The notes below the pieces were generated by a model. The model searched no databases. It saw only the letters and a program-made list of their open reading frames with translations, and was not told the origin of the DNA. From Bradyrhizobium sp. 170 (GTDB taxonomy: Bacteria > Pseudomonadota > Alphaproteobacteria > Rhizobiales > Xanthobacteraceae), in assembly GCF_023101085.1 (NCBI RefSeq), contig NZ_CP064703.1:6820001-6884000 (forward strand): DNA of 64,000 nucleotides, read 5' to 3'. Made by a program: the position numbers and the translations under genes. Positions 54,955 to 62,704 of the stretch are shown piece by piece. Numbering within the stretch: the first letter of the stretch is position 1; each line of letters begins with the position of its first letter.

Positions 54955-56286
54955 TCACGCCTTCACCCACGGCACGTCGTGTCCAAGCGCAGTTAAGCGT
55001 ACGAGCCCGAAGTGCCCGTAGAGATGCGAGAGTGGATAAGTCCCGCCCTTGCGTCGCCTGACCTTGTGCTTGGAGCGCAACCACCGGCGCAACCGCACAG
55101 CGGTGTAGTTGTCGATCGCTCTGTACGCCTTGTTGACGGTGCCTACGCTGAAGTAGTTTGCCCATCCGCGCAGCGCGCGATTCAACTTGCCCACCAGCTC
55201 TGTGGTTTCTTGCCATGTCCCCGATCGAGCAGTCAGCGCGTGAATGTTCTCCACCATGCGCCGGATGCTCTTCCGCGATGGCCGATATCCCAGGCGTGCC
55301 TGACCGGTTCTCGCTGAATACATCCGCCCGAACGAGTAGCCCAAGAAGTCGAACTCCCCTTCCGGCACCTTGCAGATTCGTGTCTTCTCCTCGTTGACCG
55401 TGAGCTTCAGCTTGCTCATGATCTTGCGCAGTTGTTGCAACGCCTCTTCGGCTTTGCCCTTCTTGCACAGGATCACGAGATCGTCGGCATAGGTCACGAT
55501 ACGAGAGCCGAGGCTTTGCTCCAACCCGAGCATCTTCCATCCCAACACGAACCGGCGCATGTAGAGATTCGCCAGCAATGGTGAGATGGGTGAACCCTGC
55601 GGGATGCCACGCCGCTTGTCCCGGGCTTCGGTTGTGCGTGTCTTCCTCCCTCGATCGTCGGTTTCTTCTACGGGGCATTCCAGCCACATCTTGATCAGAT
55701 GCAGCACGCGCCGATCAACAATTCGGCGCGCTACCGACTTTAGAAGTTCGGCATGGGGAATGCTTCCGAAGTAGTCCGCGAGGTCGGCGTCCACGACTTC
55801 CGGGTGGCCACGGAACAGCAGCCCTTCCACCTTGACCACCGCCTGTTGGGCATTCCGCCCTGGGCGGTACGCGTACTGTTCGGGTGGAAGGTCGGCTTCG
55901 AAGATCGGCTCCAGCACCAGCATTGTTGCTGTCATGCAGACCCGATCCCGCACGGTCGAGATGCCCAGCGGCCTGAGCTTGCCGTTGGCCTTCGGGATAA
56001 ACACTCTTCTGATAGGATCCGGCTGGTAGCTCTCCTCCCTGAGCGCAAGCGCCAGTTCGCCGAGCCACCGCTCTACGCCATACGCATCGATGTCCGCAAA
56101 ATCCTGACCGTCCACCCCCGGTGCGCCCTTATTGGAGCGACACTGGGCATAAGCGTGGGCCAGAACGTCCTCGCGGCCGATCTTGTCGTACAGGGCATAG
56201 AACCGATAGCCGGCTTCTGCCTTCGCTTTCGCGTGCAACGCCGTCTGCAGTTTCTGAACACTCTTCGGAGTTGATAGGTTGCCCAA
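54955..56286 (-). CDS. ltrA: Group II intron reverse transcriptase/maturase (LtrA type)
   Basis: This 443-residue protein has the reverse-transcriptase core: P-G-V-D-G near residue 55, [14 protein letters not shown] near 98, Y-R-P-G-R-N-A near 139, [14 protein letters not shown] near 229 and the catalytic Y-A-D-D near 267. The maturase (domain X) follows at about 330-420 with R-G-W-A-N-Y-F. No HNH endonuclease is present, as in rhizobial introns of this kind. The start appears to be TTG (56286). No frameshift is seen, so it may be active. Confidence 0.93.
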
Positions 56287-56930: not shown

Positions 56931-57188
56931 ATGGCCCTGCATTTCAGCCGCGTTGGTCCTGCAACAGAGGAGTTAGAGATATGGAGCGCGAGCGAACGCG
57001 GCTTTTCTTTCGTTATTAGTAACGAGAGCAGAGATGGGCCTGGACTTCACGGCAAGCCCGGCTTTGTAGCTTCTTGGCGCCCCATCCATATTAACAAGCC
57101 TGCGATCAGGGTGGGCGGATCACCCTTCAAGACGTTCGCCGAAGCCGCGACGGCCTGTGAGGCCATGCTGCCACACCTGACCAGATAG
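56931..57188 (+). CDS. Small conserved hypothetical protein, 85 residues
   Basis: M-A-L-H-F-S-R-V-G-P-A-T-E-E-L-E-I-W then R-G-F-S-F-V-I-S-N-E-S-R and W-R-P-I-H-I-N-K-P-A-I-R-V-G-G-S-P-F-K are protein-like, with a last helix E-A-A-T-A-C-E-A-M-L. GAGAG precedes the ATG at 7 bp. The same frame is open far upstream through the intron, which is meaningless. I recognise the F-x-F-V-I-S and I-x-V-G-G-S-P-F pattern from short rhizobial proteins; function unknown. Confidence 0.65.
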   Translation: MALHFSRVGPATEELEIWSASERGFSFVISNESRDGPGLHGKPGFVASWRPIHINKPAIRVGGSPFKTFAEAATACEAMLPHLTR

Positions 57189-57229
57189 CTTCGGCTTTGG
57201 CGCAGCCGACGCAAGCTGAAGAGGGACCA

Positions 57230-57376
57230 ATGACCGTTTTCGTTTACGTCAACACGAGCAAGCAGATCGGAGACAAAGACGACGTCAAGTTATTCGCAAA
57301 TGTGGATGCCGCGGAAAAGTGGTTCGAGGAGAATGATCCTGAAGGCGTCGCGTTCGAGTACGAGGTATTAGAATAG
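57230..57376 (+). CDS. Small conserved hypothetical protein, 48 residues
   Basis: The frame reads M-T-V-F-V-Y-V-N-T-S-K-Q-I-G-D-K-D-D-V-K and then A-A-E-K-W-F-E-E-N-D-P-E-G-V-A-F-E-Y-E and V-L-E-stop. GAGGGACC lies just before the ATG. Acidic, beta-alpha-beta-like. I recognise it as a short protein widespread in rhizobia, often beside mobile DNA. It follows the 85-residue gene by 41 bp and may be co-transcribed. Function unknown. Confidence 0.72.
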   Translation: MTVFVYVNTSKQIGDKDDVKLFANVDAAEKWFEENDPEGVAFEYEVLE

Positions 57377-57512
57377 TCGTTGATCCGCGCGCCTCTGCCG
57401 TGCGCACTTGCTGGTGGTAAATCGCGAGCGCACAATAGGGCTCGGTGTTGCACTTTGGTAACCCATTATTTTGTTCGCAAGCGATAAGTTCATCGCTTTG
57501 GGAGACAGGCAT

Positions 57513-57710
57513 ATGGACGTGTATTTGAACACCAAACGTGATCTGCTCGTTGTGAAGACGGGATATCCGATGCCGCCCGCTGCGGCGCAGGGAAAATGGC
57601 GTAAAAGCAAAAAGAGGGTCATCAAAGTCAGCGACGAGATCAGCTCGGCGCTCCAGAGGCAGGGCTACTACATGCGCAAGCTAAGGGACCTGCATAGTAA
57701 TAGAGACTAG
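57513..57710 (+). CDS. Small basic hypothetical protein, 65 residues
   Basis: M-D-V-Y-L-N-T-K-R-D-L-L-V-V-K-T-G-Y-P-M then a Lys/Arg-rich middle G-K-W-R-K-S-K-K-R-V-I-K-V and a helix E-I-S-S-A-L-Q-R-Q-G-Y-Y-M-R-K-L. GGGAGA precedes the ATG at 57513 by 8 bp; the open frame back to 57471 is ignored. The basic charge suggests nucleic-acid binding, but this is a guess. It lies 30 bp before the interrupted yedK gene. Confidence 0.6.
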   Translation: MDVYLNTKRDLLVVKTGYPMPPAAAQGKWRKSKKRVIKVSDEISSALQRQGYYMRKLRDLHSNRD

Positions 57711-57739
57711 CGAAGAACGATCCTTTGCGGCAGCCTTCG

Positions 57740-57753
57740 ATGTGCAATCTCTA
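57740..57753 (+). pseudogene. yedK: First codons of yedK, cut by the RIT assembly
   Basis: ATGTGCAATCTCTA encodes M-C-N-L-Y up to the second base of codon 5. The Cys at position 2 is the catalytic residue of YedK/HMCES, which crosslinks to abasic sites. The gene continues at 62372 with AATCTCTAC, so the 4.6 kb between are inserted DNA. Confidence 0.75.
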
Positions 57754-57769
57754 TTATGCCGATCTCCGT

Positions 57770-57836
57770 ATTATGCCGCGCCGATGCGCATTCCCGAGGA
57801 CAGGGGCGCAATCTCGGCGCGGCATGTCGGCATAAT
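57770..57836. repeat. Relic RIT terminal repeat
   Basis: ATTATGCCGCG (57770) and GTCGGCATAAT (57826-57836) enclose a spacer so that the unit is exactly 67 bp from core to core, as in the intact left end at 59014-59080. The spacer sequence differs. An extra core ATTATGCCGAT lies at 57753-57763. Confidence 0.75.
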
Positions 57837-57900
57837 CAGAGCGCCTCGAGGAATGCGAGCAGCTTGTCGCCGGGGCGAGAGTGGCCGGGCTTTGCCATCG
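57836..57900 (-). pseudogene. C-terminal tail of a second ritC-type recombinase gene
   Basis: The last codons read H-S-R-P-G-D-K-L-L-A-F-L-E-A-L-stop. The intact recombinase at 59080 ends R-P-N-D-K-L-L-A-F-L-E-A-L-stop, and both stops overlap the terminal repeat in the same way. The rest of the gene is lost. Confidence 0.8.
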
Positions 57901-57939
57901 CCCGTCACAGCAAGAATCTGTTTGTGCGCCGGTTGGCGA

Positions 57940-58404
57940 TCAAGAGCCGGTTGTCTCCCCGCTGGGCGTGGCGCGGAGGGCGAATATTTCCTTGGCTGCG
58001 AACAGGCCGTTGAGCGCGGCCGGGAAGCCGGCATAGACGGCCATCTGCATGATGACCTCGGTGATCTCTTCACGGCTCAGGCCGACGTTCAGGCCAGCCT
58101 CGATGTGAACCTTGAGCTGAGGGCTGGCATTGCCGAGCGCGGTTAACGCGGCAATGGTCGCGATCTCACGGGCCCGCAGATCGAGGCCGGGGCGGGAATA
58201 GATATCGCCGAAGGGGAACTCGATCACATAGCGCGCGAAATCGGGCGCGATGTCCGCCAGCGCCGTGATGACGTTATGCCCAGCCTTGCCGTCAATCTCA
58301 TCTAGTGCTCGCCGCCCGCGCTCGAGCCGGCTTTCTTGCGGCGAGAAGACCGGTGCGGGGGGTGCGCATGCGGGTTGAGCCTGTGCTTTCGTGGACTGCG
58401 TCAT
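57940..58404 (-). CDS. Carboxymuconolactone decarboxylase family protein
   Basis: This 154-residue protein starts at ATG 58404 (AAGGAG upstream). The core has A-P-D-F-A-R-Y-V-I-E-F-P-F-G-D-I-Y, R-A-R-E-I-A-T-I-A-A-L-T-A-L-G near residue 80 and H-I-E-A-G-L-N-V-G-L-S-R-E-E-I near 104, the usual 4-carboxymuconolactone decarboxylase pattern. No AhpD C-x-x-C pair is seen, so it is not a peroxidase of that kind. It overlaps the MerR gene upstream and is probably controlled by it. It lies between two RIT ends as possible cargo. Confidence 0.88.
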   Translation of the reverse strand: MTQSTKAQAQPACAPPAPVFSPQESRLERGRRALDEIDGKAGHNVITALADIAPDFARYVIEFPFGDIYSRPGLDLRAREIATIAALTALGNASPQLKVHIEAGLNVGLSREEITEVIMQMAVYAGFPAALNGLFAAKEIFALRATPSGETTGS

Positions 58405-58768
58405 GATTTTTGCTCCTTGTTCTCGTGCCGGCGTAGCCAGCAATCTTGGTGTCGAGAACGAGAAGGCACGCTTGCAGTTCGGCAGCGTGGGCACGGACGG
58501 CCGCACGGTGGCGCTCCAGAAGCTCGCGACGCTCAGCCTCAGTGCCGACGCCGCGCTCCCGCAGTGCTGCGTAGCGCAGCATGTCCCGGATCGGCATCCC
58601 GGTCGTCTTCAGACGGCCGAGAAACTCGATCCAGGTCAGGATCGATGCGTCGTAATCCCGATGGCGCGATTGGTTGCGGTCAGCATAGGGCAGCAGCCCG
58701 ATCCGCTCATAGTAACGAATCGTATGTGCTGTCAGTCCCGAGCGTTTCGCCAGTTCACCAATCTTCAT
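58298..58768 (-). CDS. MerR family transcriptional regulator, long C-terminal overlap with the next gene
   Basis: M-K-I-G-E-L-A-K-R-S-G-L-T-A-H-T-I-R-Y-Y then E-R-I-G-L-L-P is the classic MerR winged helix, followed by the dimer helix with E-F-L-G-R-L-K-T-T-G-M-P-I-R-D near residue 50. No metal-binding cysteine pattern is present at the end, so an organic ligand or redox signal is likely. The open frame gives 156 residues, and the last 35 overlap the decarboxylase gene. The normal MerR end would be near L-D-T-K-I-A-G-Y, so the tail may be an extension caused by a lost stop. Confidence 0.88.
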   Translation of the reverse strand: MKIGELAKRSGLTAHTIRYYERIGLLPYADRNQSRHRDYDASILTWIEFLGRLKTTGMPIRDMLRYAALRERGVGTEAERRELLERHRAAVRAHAAELQACLLVLDTKIAGYAGTRTRSKNHDAVHESTGSTRMRTPRTGLLAARKPARARAASTR

Positions 58769-59012
58769 GAGCACCCTTCTCGATCAACGACGCAACGGAA
58801 GCTAGGGGTTCGAGCGCGCTCTAAGTCAAGAGGAAATCGCATCACAGTGATTCGAGCACCAGCACGCTGTCTCCGACGGGGTGGTGCATCGCTGCGATTT
58901 GGAACAGGCAAATGGACAAACAAGGTCTGTTCGCCGCTCGGCGAAGTGAGCCTGCCCGGCGACTGCTAAGCTTGAAGCCAATTCATTTTCGGCAGGGGGC
59001 AGGGAGGGGGCC

Positions 59013-59081
59013 GATTATGCCGACCGTTGGCTCAGGACGGCCTCAGGCGGCGGCGATCGCTGCTTTGGAGTCGGCATAATC
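59013..59081. repeat. Left terminal inverted repeat of the RIT element (69 bp)
   Basis: The repeat starts GATTATGCCGAC and ends GTCGGCATAATC, so each terminal repeat is itself framed by two inverted copies of the core ATTATGCCGAC. Compared with the reverse complement of 62264-62332, 61 of 69 positions agree. The spacer between cores is 45 bp. The stop codon of the last recombinase gene overlaps its inner edge. Confidence 0.9.
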
Positions 59082-60069
59082 ACAGTGCCTCCAGAAATGC
59101 GAGAAGCTTATCATTCGGTCGAAAACGACCGGCAGTAGCTACCGCTGGAGCTGTAGCGGCCAGTGCGCGTTCCTTGATTCCCATATCAGCGTGTAGGTAG
59201 ATGTGGGTGGTTTCGACCTGCTCATGGCCGAGCCAAAGTGCTATCACCGAAGTCTCAACTCCCGCCCGCAGCAGTCGCATCGCGGCGCTGTGACGCAACA
59301 CATGCATGCTGATGGTTTTCTGTCCCAACGACGGACAGGCGCGGGTGGCGATCTGAACGTATTTGGCGAGCCGATGTTCGACGGCGTCACGGCTGAGTGA
59401 CGTCCCCGACTGGGTGACGAAAAGTGGCTCCGCCGGTTGACCAGCGCGCTCAGCGAGCCAAACACGCAGGAGGGCGACCATGCCCGACGTAATCGGTGTG
59501 ATCCGCAACTTCCGTCCTTTCCCCATGCAACTGACATGCGCGCCAGTGCCGAGATGAACATCGCTGATGCGAAGGCCGATCAATTCTGACGCACGCAGGC
59601 CCGTTTGGGCCGCGAGCGTAAGCAGGGTATGGTCGCGCCGCCCGGTCCAGGTCGAGCGGTTGGGTGCGCGGAACAGCGCATCGAGTTCTGGTTCGATCAG
59701 GAAAGTGACGAGCCTCCGGTCGAAACGCTTGCGTGGAATGGCAAGCACGCGTTCGATTATGGCGGCATGCTCGGGATGTCGAAACGCTGCGTACCGGAAC
59801 AGCGAACGGACGGCGGCAAGTCGAGCGTTGCGAGTGCGCGCACTATTCTCCCGCTGCTTCTCAAGATGGTCGAGGAAGGCGCCGATGAGCGGCGCATCAA
59901 GATCGTCGATGTCTAGCTTCGATGGTTCGACGTCTTTCCTCGCGGACGCGAAGACCAGCAGCAGCCGCAGCGTGTCCCGGTAGGCCGCAAGTGTATGGGG
60001 ACTAGCTTGGCGCTGGCAGATGAGGCGTTCCGTGAAGAACGCTTGCAGGGTTGGGGCAAGTGCGGTCAT
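59080..60069 (-). CDS. ritC: RIT element tyrosine recombinase C
   Basis: This 329-residue recombinase has an N-terminal SAM-like domain (about residues 5-95) and a catalytic domain with Arg in A-Q-T-G-L-R-A-S-E-L (about 160), Lys in M-G-K-G-R-K-L-R, H-x-x-R in H-V-L-R-H-S-A-A-M-R-L-L (about 254), His in W-L-G-H-E-Q-V and nucleophile Tyr in T-H-I-Y-L-H-A-D (about 286). It overlaps ritB by 4 bp and is the last of three. Trios of different tyrosine recombinases in one overlapping operon define RIT elements; how the three share the work is unknown. Confidence 0.92.
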   Translation of the reverse strand: MTALAPTLQAFFTERLICQRQASPHTLAAYRDTLRLLLVFASARKDVEPSKLDIDDLDAPLIGAFLDHLEKQRENSARTRNARLAAVRSLFRYAAFRHPEHAAIIERVLAIPRKRFDRRLVTFLIEPELDALFRAPNRSTWTGRRDHTLLTLAAQTGLRASELIGLRISDVHLGTGAHVSCMGKGRKLRITPITSGMVALLRVWLAERAGQPAEPLFVTQSGTSLSRDAVEHRLAKYVQIATRACPSLGQKTISMHVLRHSAAMRLLRAGVETSVIALWLGHEQVETTHIYLHADMGIKERALAATAPAVATAGRFRPNDKLLAFLEAL

Positions 60070-60989
60070 GCGGCACCTCCGAGGTGCCGCTCCAAACGAT
60101 CACCAACCAGCGTCAGCAACTCCGGCGCAGCTGAGATATACCAGTATGTGCTGACGGGATCGACGTGGCCGAGGTAGGTCGACAGCAACGCGATCCGGTT
60201 CCCCGGCTCCCTGCCATCTCGATATCCGTCAAGGATGGTATTGACGGCAAATCCGTGCCGCAGGTCATGCAGCCTCGGACGGCATGAGGCAGAGCGCGGC
60301 TTGAGGCCGGCGACATCCACAATTTGACGAAAGACGGGCTGGACGCCCATGTAGCGGAACCTGGTGCCAACCGTAGTGACCAGCAGTGCCGGCGTATTCG
60401 ACGAGTTTTTCGGACGGTCGTCTCGACGCAGATAATCAACCAGTGCAGCCACGGTGCTCGGATGCAGCGGCAATTGGCGAGACTTGCCGAACTTTGCGTT
60501 CCGAATGGTGAGTAGTCCAATGACGGAGTCAAAATCGTCGCGGTCGAGGCCGATCGCTTCCCCAACCCGCATGCCGGTCACTGCAAGCAAAGCGATCAAT
60601 GTCCGAAATGTCGCCACTCGGTGCGGTGCCCGCAGCGTCCCGGCTGCGGCGATGAGGGCCGCGATATCCGACTCCGAATATAGGTAGGGGGTGGCCCGGC
60701 CTTTTTGCTGCACCAGCAAGTGTGTCGGGGGCACCTCGGTCGCGGGGTCGATCCCGCGCAGGTGTTTAGCGAAGCGGCGAACAACGGAAAGCCGGGCAAA
60801 CGCCCAGGTTCGACCGCGCTTAGGGAGTGTCGCCCAAGCGAGCGCCGCCTCGGTTGTCAGATGGTCTTCGCCACGATCCTCGACGAAGGTGAGAAACTGA
60901 CCGAGTAGTTTCTCGGCTCGATAGAGCTTAAAGCCGAGGGCGCGGCGAACCGCAAAATAGTCAGCGAGAGCTTTGCGGAGAGCGTTCAT
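60066..60989 (-). CDS. ritB: RIT element tyrosine recombinase B
   Basis: This 307-residue recombinase starts at an ATG overlapping the ritA stop by 4 bp; the frame is open to 61007. The catalytic set is Arg in V-T-G-M-R-V-G-E-A-I (about 150), R-L-H-D-L-R-H-G-F-A-V-N (about 250), L-G-H-V-D-P-V and Tyr in S-T-Y-W-Y-I-S (about 288). The stretch Y-R-D-G-R-E-P-G-N-R-I between the H-x-x-R and the second His is longer than in XerC/D, as usual for the middle RIT protein. The coupling of translation points to use in a fixed ratio. Confidence 0.92.
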   Translation of the reverse strand: MNALRKALADYFAVRRALGFKLYRAEKLLGQFLTFVEDRGEDHLTTEAALAWATLPKRGRTWAFARLSVVRRFAKHLRGIDPATEVPPTHLLVQQKGRATPYLYSESDIAALIAAAGTLRAPHRVATFRTLIALLAVTGMRVGEAIGLDRDDFDSVIGLLTIRNAKFGKSRQLPLHPSTVAALVDYLRRDDRPKNSSNTPALLVTTVGTRFRYMGVQPVFRQIVDVAGLKPRSASCRPRLHDLRHGFAVNTILDGYRDGREPGNRIALLSTYLGHVDPVSTYWYISAAPELLTLVGDRLERHLGGAA

Positions 60990-62209
60990 GCGATGTCTCC
61001 CGGCCAAGGGCGGGCGATCGACCGCAGAGCATCGCGATCGACCTTGGCGTAAATCGATGTCGTAATAGCGTTGCGGTGGCGCAGGAGTTGTCCGATCTCG
61101 GGCAGCGATGCACCGCCGCGTAGCATCAGAGTCGCCGCGGTGTGACGCAGCCGGTGAGCATGGATCGGTTCAATGCCGCACCGTTCGCTAGCGTGGCGAA
61201 CAATCTGCGTTACCGCGCCAGTGGTGAGAGCATGGTGCGGAGCTGTGATCCGTGCAAACACTGTGCGGCCTTGCGTGCTTGCGGGACGGCCGTGACGCAA
61301 GTAAGCCGCAATTGCTTCGCCGACATCCGCGGGCAAAGGCAATCGTTCGGTGCGATTGCCCTTGCTGTGAGCAATCACGATCTCGCCGGCTCGCCAATCG
61401 ATGTGCTCAAGTTGCAGTTTGGCGACTTCGCCTGCCCGCAGGCCCAGGCGAACAAGCATGGTCAGGACCGCGAAGTCACGACAGCCACTTCGGGTGCTGG
61501 CGTCGCAGGACGCCAGAAGGCGCTGCACCTGGTCAGAGGCCAATCCCTTCGGCAATCCGGTTAATCGCCGACCGGGAACGGTCGGCACCGCAGACACCAG
61601 CGACCGATCGATAGCGCCGTCGACGTAAAGAAAACCGAGTAGTGATCGAAGGGCCGTCACCGTCAGCCCGGCCGTCCCAGGGCTGAGGCGGGAGCACTTT
61701 GTCACTACAAAAGAAATGACATCAGCCGCTGTCAGGCTTCGAAGGTCCAGAGCAAGGCCGTCCGGCAAGACCCTGGTTTGAAGGAAGGGACGCATCAGTT
61801 CAACATACCTGGACGCTGACGCATCCTTGATGCCACGTTCAAGTATCAAGTAACCTCGGTATCGCGCCAGGGCCGCTTCAAGCACTCCGCTGGCCGGCGG
61901 CAACAAAGCCGCAGGTGCGGTCCCAAGACCGCGCAGGTAACCGAGGATCGGCTGCATCGCTCTGATAGAGCGAAGAAAACTGTAACCAGCTTCATGACGG
62001 CTGCGCTGAAACCGCTCTACTTCCTTTGCGCATAGTTCCCCTACACCGAGCCCCTCGCTCACAAGCCAATTGCTCAGCTGATTTAGCAGCAACAAATGAA
62101 AGCGGGCCTGCTGTGGGCTATAGCCTTGTCGTGTCAGGTGGTCGGCAAACCCGGTCGCGAATGCCGAAAGCGGACCCGAAATCCTAACTCGTGACAGATC
62201 AATCAACAT
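60986..62209 (-). CDS. ritA: RIT element tyrosine recombinase A
   Basis: This 407-residue recombinase is the longest and first of the three. GGGAGG lies 6 bp before the ATG at 62209, which is preferred over the open frame to 62260. It has an extra N-terminal part of about 100 residues (F-H-L-L-L-L-N-Q-L-S-N-W-L) before the core-binding domain. The catalytic residues are Arg in R-L-G-L-R-A-G-E-V (about 266), H-A-H-R-L-R-H-T-A-A-T (about 355), L-L-R-H-R-N-A-I-T and Tyr in T-S-I-Y-A-K-V (about 390). The fourth position of the set is R-H instead of G-H. All are in place, so the element may be active. Confidence 0.92.
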   Translation of the reverse strand: MLIDLSRVRISGPLSAFATGFADHLTRQGYSPQQARFHLLLLNQLSNWLVSEGLGVGELCAKEVERFQRSRHEAGYSFLRSIRAMQPILGYLRGLGTAPAALLPPASGVLEAALARYRGYLILERGIKDASASRYVELMRPFLQTRVLPDGLALDLRSLTAADVISFVVTKCSRLSPGTAGLTVTALRSLLGFLYVDGAIDRSLVSAVPTVPGRRLTGLPKGLASDQVQRLLASCDASTRSGCRDFAVLTMLVRLGLRAGEVAKLQLEHIDWRAGEIVIAHSKGNRTERLPLPADVGEAIAAYLRHGRPASTQGRTVFARITAPHHALTTGAVTQIVRHASERCGIEPIHAHRLRHTAATLMLRGGASLPEIGQLLRHRNAITTSIYAKVDRDALRSIARPWPGDIA

Positions 62210-62263
62210 CAAAGCCTCCCTTCGATTGGCAAGAGGGAGGCTATACGCGGTAGCCATCAATCG

Positions 62264-62332
62264 GATTATGCCGACTCCATCGCAGCGATCGCCGCCGCCC
62301 GAGCCCGCTCTGAGCTAATGGTCGGCATAATC
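62264..62332. repeat. Right terminal inverted repeat of the RIT element (69 bp)
   Basis: It has the core ATTATGCCGAC at 62265-62275 and GTCGGCATAAT at 62321-62331, the mirror of the left repeat with eight differences. It lies 54 bp upstream of the ritA start and may also hold the promoter of the recombinase operon. Confidence 0.9.
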
Positions 62333-62346
62333 CAGAGGTCGGCATA

Positions 62347-62380
62347 GTAGAGATTATGCCGACGTCGGCATAATCTCTAC
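62347..62380. repeat. 34-bp perfect palindrome at the right junction with yedK
   Basis: GTAGAGATTATGCCGAC (62347-62363) is followed directly by its reverse complement (62364-62380). The outer 9 bases on each side are the yedK target AATCTCTAC in two orientations, and the inner part is two head-to-head cores ATGCCGAC. A further degenerate core GTCGGCATAG is at 62338-62347. Confidence 0.9.
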
Positions 62381-62704
62381 AGCATCACCACCAATCAAGA
62401 AGCCATCCGCGCGCTCTTCCGGGTGATGAACCGCTACGTCGGTAACCTGCCGCCAATGCCGGGGCGTCTTCTCGGACTATCCTGCGCCAGTCGTCCGCAA
62501 CGCCGGGACCGAGCGCGAGCTGACCATGATGCGCTGGGGCATGCGGCCGCCGCCGAAGATCGGCGGGCCACCGGTCACGAACATCCGCAAACACGTCGTC
62601 CCCGCACTGGCGCGGCTTGGCTGAAGCCAGAGAACCGGTACTGGGTGCCCTTCAACACCGCTGGGATCAGCCCGCCGGCAGTGAACGGCGCAAGGTGGCC
62701 TTAG
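62372..62704 (+). pseudogene. yedK: Middle part of yedK (SOS response-associated peptidase, HMCES family), frameshifted
   Basis: After the insertion the gene continues N-L-Y-S-I-T-T-N-Q-E-A-I-R-A-L-F-R, then V-F-S-D-Y-P-A-P-V-V-R-N-A-G, then M-M-R-W-G-M-R-P-P-P-K-I-G and W-L-K-P-E-N-R-Y-W-V-P-F-N. One extra C after M-P-G, one extra A after T-N-I-R and one extra T before W-L-K-P-E-N break the frame three times, and the family sequence is lost after P-F-N. The gene cannot work. YedK proteins bind abasic sites in single-stranded DNA through Cys2, which is on the other side of the insertion. Confidence 0.85.

Follow-up and report, generated by a model that had tools for sequence, protein, structure and literature searches.

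Within the 64,000-nucleotide stretch of the Bradyrhizobium sp. 170 genome analysed here (contig NZ_CP064703.1, positions 6,820,001 to 6,884,000; hereafter, the window), a composite unit of 4.6 kb (57754-62373) splits a yedK-type gene directly after M-C-N-L-Y. The three-recombinase core of this unit is an intact Recombinase-In-Trio (RIT) element: ritA (60986-62209, 407 aa; scanned as a longer open reading frame to 62260), ritB (60066-60989, 307 aa) and ritC (59080-60069, 329 aa), all on the minus strand, follow one another in the order A-B-C with 4-bp overlaps at 60986-60989 and 60066-60069. An earlier note on this DNA had described three overlapping tyrosine recombinase genes of these lengths, and all three indeed match Pfam Phage_integrase. 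In RitC, assigned also by alignment with other RitC proteins, the catalytic R..HxxR..H..Y set (R159, H256, R259, H282 and Y291) is invariant in 10 aligned sequences, and RitA and RitB, judged by eye, appear to possess the same set. The trio is enclosed by 69-nt inverted repeats, at 59013-59081 on the plus strand and 62264-62332 on the minus strand, that match at 61 of 69 positions (88%); the note had counted the same matches but took the repeats to be terminal, which they are not, because outer arms lie beyond them, TTATGCCGAT at 57754-57763 (plus) and GTCGGCATAG at 62338-62347 (minus), with a palindrome farther out still. The RIT part (59013-62355) is 94-96% identical to 3.3-kb elements of relatives, and the motif TTATGCCGA, with at most one mismatch, is enriched in the window (36 occurrences against 12.45 expected, a number reached in 0 of 100 shuffles).

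What the note had read as a plain RIT insert is instead a composite. Its left end (57754-57901, plus strand) resembles that of another RIT subfamily, with 87% identity over 57750-57877 to the left end of L069 (the same place as L135, which is itself located in ardC), and includes a remnant of a ritC 3' end (57826-57901, 72% identical to 59070-59145). Next come two minus-strand cargo genes with uncertain start codons, one of the carboxymuconolactone decarboxylase family (57940-58506, the longest open reading frame; Pfam CMD, 1e-21) and one for a MerR-family regulator (58298-58774; Pfam MerR, 2.1e-16). On these sequence matches, the order of the unit is a left end resembling an ardC-targeting RIT, the carboxymuconolactone decarboxylase/MerR pair and a complete yedK-targeting RIT. 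A search of the genus with the element covered 265 genomes, 186 of which gave any match, and, among the matches listed, the RIT matches in 12 other genomes begin at the inner repeat. Given the foreign-looking left end, the cargo pair and these matches from the inner repeat, it seems that an end like another subfamily's, and with it the two intervening genes, was mobilised by the yedK-type recombinases. Also located within yedK, in L063, L066 and L068, are short forms of the yedK-type RIT that have the repeats but no recombinase genes.

The joints with yedK hold two features that the note had missed, a 20-bp palindrome and an inverted inner overlap. On the left, the 5' end of the gene (ATG-TGC-AA, 57740-57747, plus strand, as read in the sequence) runs into the segment TCTCTA (57748-57753, plus), so that the flank reads ATG-TGC-AAT-CTC-TA over 57740-57753. 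On the right, the outer arm GTCGGCATAG is followed by TAGAGA, the inverted copy of TCTCTA (62348-62353, minus), by the perfect 20-bp palindrome TTATGCCGACGTCGGCATAA (62354-62373), by TCTCTA once more (62374-62379, plus) and by the frameshifted remainder of the yedK-type gene (62380-62640, plus; right edge approximate), the right flank reading AATCTCTACAGC from 62372. We denote the 6-bp segments X (yedK 5' side), Y (inner, inverted) and Z (yedK 3' side).

The window 5' flank (57150-57745) was used as query against 257 genomes of the genus, and the six closest other matches were read. Three of them (L116, L118 and L119, in all of which the gene is uninterrupted) continue into the same yedK-type body without an insert, which upholds the yedK assignment of the earlier note and passes the refutation check that the note had set; the site reads ATGTGCAATCTCTACAGCATCACC in L118, ATGTGCAATCTCTGCAGC, with CTCTGCAGC, in L116, and ATGTTCAATCTCTATAGC in L119, where Pfam SRAP is matched at 1.2e-22 (L116 and L118 score below the family cut-off). 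The flank continues into other sequence in L117 and L121 and into a different yedK body in L120. The downstream yedK half in the window is frameshifted and has no NCBIfam match; those of the other three copies in the genome (copies B, C and D) match Pfam SRAP, with open frames of 218-239 codons. In total, four copies of the element are present in the genome, a single contig of 9.2 Mb, each splitting a yedK-type gene right after M-C-N-L-Y, with zero base differences across 57754-62356. Empty sites in relatives and four copies at the same codons support, at the level of sequence, a precise RIT insertion at codons 3-5 of the yedK-type gene, much as the note, which named codon 5, had proposed; the four identical copies and the empty sites are also suggestive of mobility of the RIT. 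The note's further remark that most copies lack clear outer ends fails for the copies that were read. A second, distant RIT-like trio is present in the same genome (L152, G000:C1:2223000-2230000).

Could homologous recombination or gene conversion among yedK-type genes have multiplied the element to four copies, with no recombinase-mediated movement at all? Flanks have visibly been exchanged in the genus (two 5' flanks in L061, two 3' flanks in L062), and copy C and L120 combine halves from different loci, as such a process would predict; yet the yedK halves on either side differ around identical element bodies, and in many species other RIT subfamilies are positioned precisely at motifs of unrelated genes, so that we consider this explanation very improbable. 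In L120 (G207:C55), the yedK body that follows a window-type 5' flank, without the element, is of the copy-C type (94% identity across 756 bases), and this locus is either a chimera or the trace of an exchange plus excision.

The palindrome keeps to one side of yedK. It is found on the yedK 3' side in 4 of 4 copies in the genome, including copy D, where the element is inverted relative to its yedK-type gene, and nowhere else in the genome when up to two mismatches are allowed. In 20 regions fetched from the genus, the outer RIT ends that were found adjoin yedK codons, except for one end in L075. A scan of junction patterns at 29 loci of the genus, our own four copies included, detected the palindrome at 0 of 18 5' junctions; the 3' junctions number 22, of which two (L086 and L088) consist of the palindrome only, and among the remaining 20 the palindrome is present in 17 (L083 and L090 have no visible element). 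The element itself can face either way: in the nine copies in which both sides and the rit genes are readable, ritC points toward the yedK 5' side in six and toward the palindrome in three. In L073 and L074, which are the same locus, Y and Z are exchanged.

Such one-sidedness might be taken to mean that the palindrome is a resident landing site, so that palindrome-bearing yedK-type genes are the real target and the element enters on their 5' side. In keeping with this possibility, yedK-type genes with the palindrome alone exist in two genomes, and the element is never seen 3' of the palindrome in yedK. However, the palindrome is missing from the orthologous uninterrupted genes that were read at the window locus and from most of those at the copy-C locus, where seven relatives have an uninterrupted gene with a different yedK body and two others contain only the palindrome, minus one base; of the 257 genus genomes scanned, 14 contain the palindrome when at most one mismatch is allowed, and the sites read are mostly element joints. 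A landing site would, moreover, have to pre-exist in unrelated target genes across phyla. We therefore find this explanation unlikely; the palindrome alone at the copy-C flank is likely an excision scar, possibly a precursor.

The same arrangement extends well beyond the genus. An alignment of RitC proteins led to 79 loci whose record titles span several phyla; in 56 of these loci, a clear pair of repeats marked the ends, with a spacing of 3.04-3.52 kb in 55 (4.85 kb in L183). Under a strict rule (at least 8 perfect pairs, a gap of at most 2, near the end), applied to 43 loci with both ends readable, a palindrome is present at exactly one end in 33, at both ends in none and at neither end in 10, compared with 110 of 11,200 random 60-mers (1%). 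A looser second pass detected a palindrome in 39 of the 56 loci, 22 times next to ritC and 17 times next to ritA (96 of 5,582 random 80-mers in the control). The sequence of the palindrome varies by family (TTATGTGGACGTCCACATAA, TTATGCGGAATTCCGCATAA, TTATGTTGATATCAACATAA), with all 10 positions paired in 18 of the 39 and 9 positions in 17. In a RIT copy of pHG1, for which ritA and ritB are annotated, the same arrangement, CGCGGT-TCATGCCGCTAGCGGCATGA-ACCGCG, is found at an IS66 transposase gene. In one locus, L139, the RIT is flanked by 5' halves of ardC in inverted orientation that form a 228-nt inverted repeat.

Across 37 of the loci, X, Y and Z agree at 5.0-5.2 of 6 bases, compared with 2.0-2.1 in controls, but Z is not identical to Y in 18 or to X in 14, and Y is identical to neither in 14 (8 with X identical to Z and 6 with all three different). 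These figures bear on two further explanations. Were the insert an ordinary transposon whose staggered cut had duplicated 8 bp of the target, this would account for AATCTCTA on both sides of it, the direct repeat that the note had reported; the repeat is real, but, because the two sides often differ in other copies, it is better read as the 6-bp recombination overlap TCTCTA. The flanking segments X and Z, identical in the window, differ in 14 of the 37 loci and in copy C, contrary to the identical duplication of a DDE-type transposon, there is a third, inverted segment, and such recombination genes as were found in the insert encode tyrosine recombinases, all of which leaves this explanation with hardly any credibility. 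Alternatively, the palindrome and the inverted overlap might be created anew at each insertion, for example, by hairpin-end copying, with Y an inverted duplicate of the local target overlap. The palindromes are symmetric even though their sequence varies by family, and Y usually resembles Z, both as this scheme would have it; the 18 loci where Y departs from Z, the 14 where it departs from both and the family-specific rather than target-derived nature of the palindrome make the scheme distinctly improbable, more so than a resident landing site.

It appears probable, on comparison of these joints, that the RIT composite in the window moves through a two-core circle, by tyrosine recombination at overlaps of 6 bp, and that the same architecture fits many RITs. 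Recombination of X with Z would excise the unit into a circle whose joint consists of element arm, overlap, palindrome, overlap and element arm, that is, two equivalent cores, either of which could recombine with the overlap in codons 3-5 of yedK; the predicted sequence of the joint is GTCGGCATAG-TAGAGA-TTATGCCGACGTCGGCATAA-overlap-TTATGCCGA. Matching of the overlap to the target would fix the side of the palindrome and leave the element free to face either way, and X, Y and Z would then record the present and earlier targets. A two-core circle with a matched overlap would explain the fixed side of the palindrome, the free orientation and the inverted Y, and would make Y or Z a trace of earlier hosts. 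If X recombined with Y, the element would be freed and the palindrome left behind as a scar. In the window, intact yedK-type recombinases would have used a left end similar to that of ardC-type RITs and thereby carried the two intervening genes along.

Several observations sit uneasily with this two-core mechanism. The yedK 3' junctions of L068, L079 and L080 have no palindrome, and the palindrome-only sites lack one base; the ten survey loci that the strict rule scored as palindrome-free (by eye, four have an imperfect one) and L232, beside an ardC-like gene, where a palindrome was found at neither end, do not conform either. Matching of the overlap is not strict, given the six of 37 loci with three different overlaps, and the origin of the palindrome is left unexplained, since in several families it is not a copy of the element arm. 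Finally, the link between the side of the palindrome and the polarity of the target is a judgement by eye.

The targets of the other subfamilies present another facet of the RIT story. We scanned 30 flank fragments with profiles, 23 from 23 of the 39 survey loci and seven from the genus. A target family was matched for 20 of the 23 survey loci, and 18 of these are genes for transposases, recombinases or reverse transcriptases: the counts are five for Transposase_mut, three for IstB, two each for IS66 and Phage_integrase, and one each for an integrase N-terminal domain, rve, resolvase, reverse transcriptase, DDE_Tnp_1, DDE_5, RadC and DUF3489 (the Phage_integrase match of L223 is below the cut-off). 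The profile scan gave no family match for the flank fragments of L187, L201 and L205, and the seven genus fragments matched ArdC/MPTase, ritB and SRAP. Within a family, the break recurs at the same profile position: 254-256 in Transposase_mut (L156, L166, L194, L199 and L217), 159/160 in IstB (L204, L209 and L227), 154 in IS66 (L155 and L231), 133 in Phage_integrase (L142, L223 and L228) and 52-54 in MPTase-PolyVal (L135 and L141). Several of these positions are what we take to be catalytic motifs, namely, HExxH, the integrase HxxRH and the N-terminal cysteine of YedK. By eye, in the survey sequences, the half of the motif that carries the palindrome is constant within a class of target. Some RITs lie within another RIT, in ritB (HDLR/H) or ritC (VIR/H) in L142 and L145, and L147 looks similar; in L184, a RIT entered a reverse transcriptase gene.

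The subfamilies of other RITs are probably specialised on different conserved motif codons. More tentatively, with the chances perhaps somewhat short of even, RITs in general might share an attachment site that consists of a family-specific 20-bp palindrome and an inverted pair of 6-bp overlaps and forms a two-core circle; the three half-sites (element, palindrome and target arm) may explain why three recombinases travel together, and the subfamilies would be specialised on conserved, often catalytic, motif codons, mostly in genes of mobile elements, with yedK among them. The differences between element, palindrome and target arms at least offer a concrete idea as to why three recombinases are needed. 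From the joints one can read the exact ends of RITs, their overlap, a rule for the target and the joint to be expected in the circle, each directly testable, and the joints link RITs to flank exchange between yedK loci; a RIT with cargo and an end like that of another subfamily would make RITs possible carriers of other genes.

In elements of the Tn554 and Tn916 types, a short segment beside the element is carried over from the donor, and the gene content of these elements is unlike that of the window element; we know of no one-sided palindrome in either type. It is for the donor-carried short adjoining segment that we liken these elements, both named in a 2023 comparison (PMC10214605), to the window unit. 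The strand-biased circularizing integrative elements (SEs) resemble the window element in their inverted terminal motifs around a 6-bp spacer, which travels from donor to new site, and in their site specificity, but they carry the gene block intA, tfp, intB and srap (PMC10214605; the last, despite its name, not of the SRAP/YedK family), in contrast to the three catalytic recombinases and the proposed two cores around a palindrome in the window element. This block was not encountered in the window element, where the three recombination genes found all match Phage_integrase, although no dedicated search for tfp or srap was made. GInts, too, are islands that insert site-specifically and encode several tyrosine recombinases, with imperfect direct repeats and circular forms (PMC5385486); unlike the window element, they have four genes, ginA-D, one of them without catalytic residues (PMC10214605). 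The window has three recombination genes, all with catalytic residues, rather than ginA-D with a GinC lacking them, and the word palindrome does not occur in the available part of the GInt paper (PMC5385486).

Among RITs proper, those of Cupriavidus metallidurans, pHG1 and others consist of adjacent, overlapping tyrosine recombinase genes in the order A-B-C, measure about 3.3-3.5 kb, and have inverted repeats and multiple identical copies (PMC2864759, PMC3414803), the trio, the repeats and the identical copies being common to them and the window element. Insertions are reported in radC and a transposase gene (PMC3414803) and in radC and IS66 tnpA (PMC2864759); two core-binding domains are described for RitA, and an additional C-terminal helix for RitC (PMC8138268). 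The only repeats found in PMC3414803, an inverted repeat of 28-29 bp and a palindromic sequence overlapping it, were left uninterpreted there, and PMC10214605 lists the target specificity, empty site and movement of RITs as NT (not formally tested). The window element differs from the known RITs in its composite build with cargo, its left end like that of another subfamily and its yedK target, and in that its one-sided palindrome and inverted overlaps are here read as a two-core attachment site. In the available parts of the RIT literature compared, with Ricker 2013 and Van Houdt 2009 outside the comparison, we found no description of a one-sided palindrome with inverted overlaps, of the target rule or of the composite. 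Elsewhere in the window, a 443-aa open reading frame on the minus strand (54955-56286) looks, by eye, like a group II intron reverse transcriptase/maturase.

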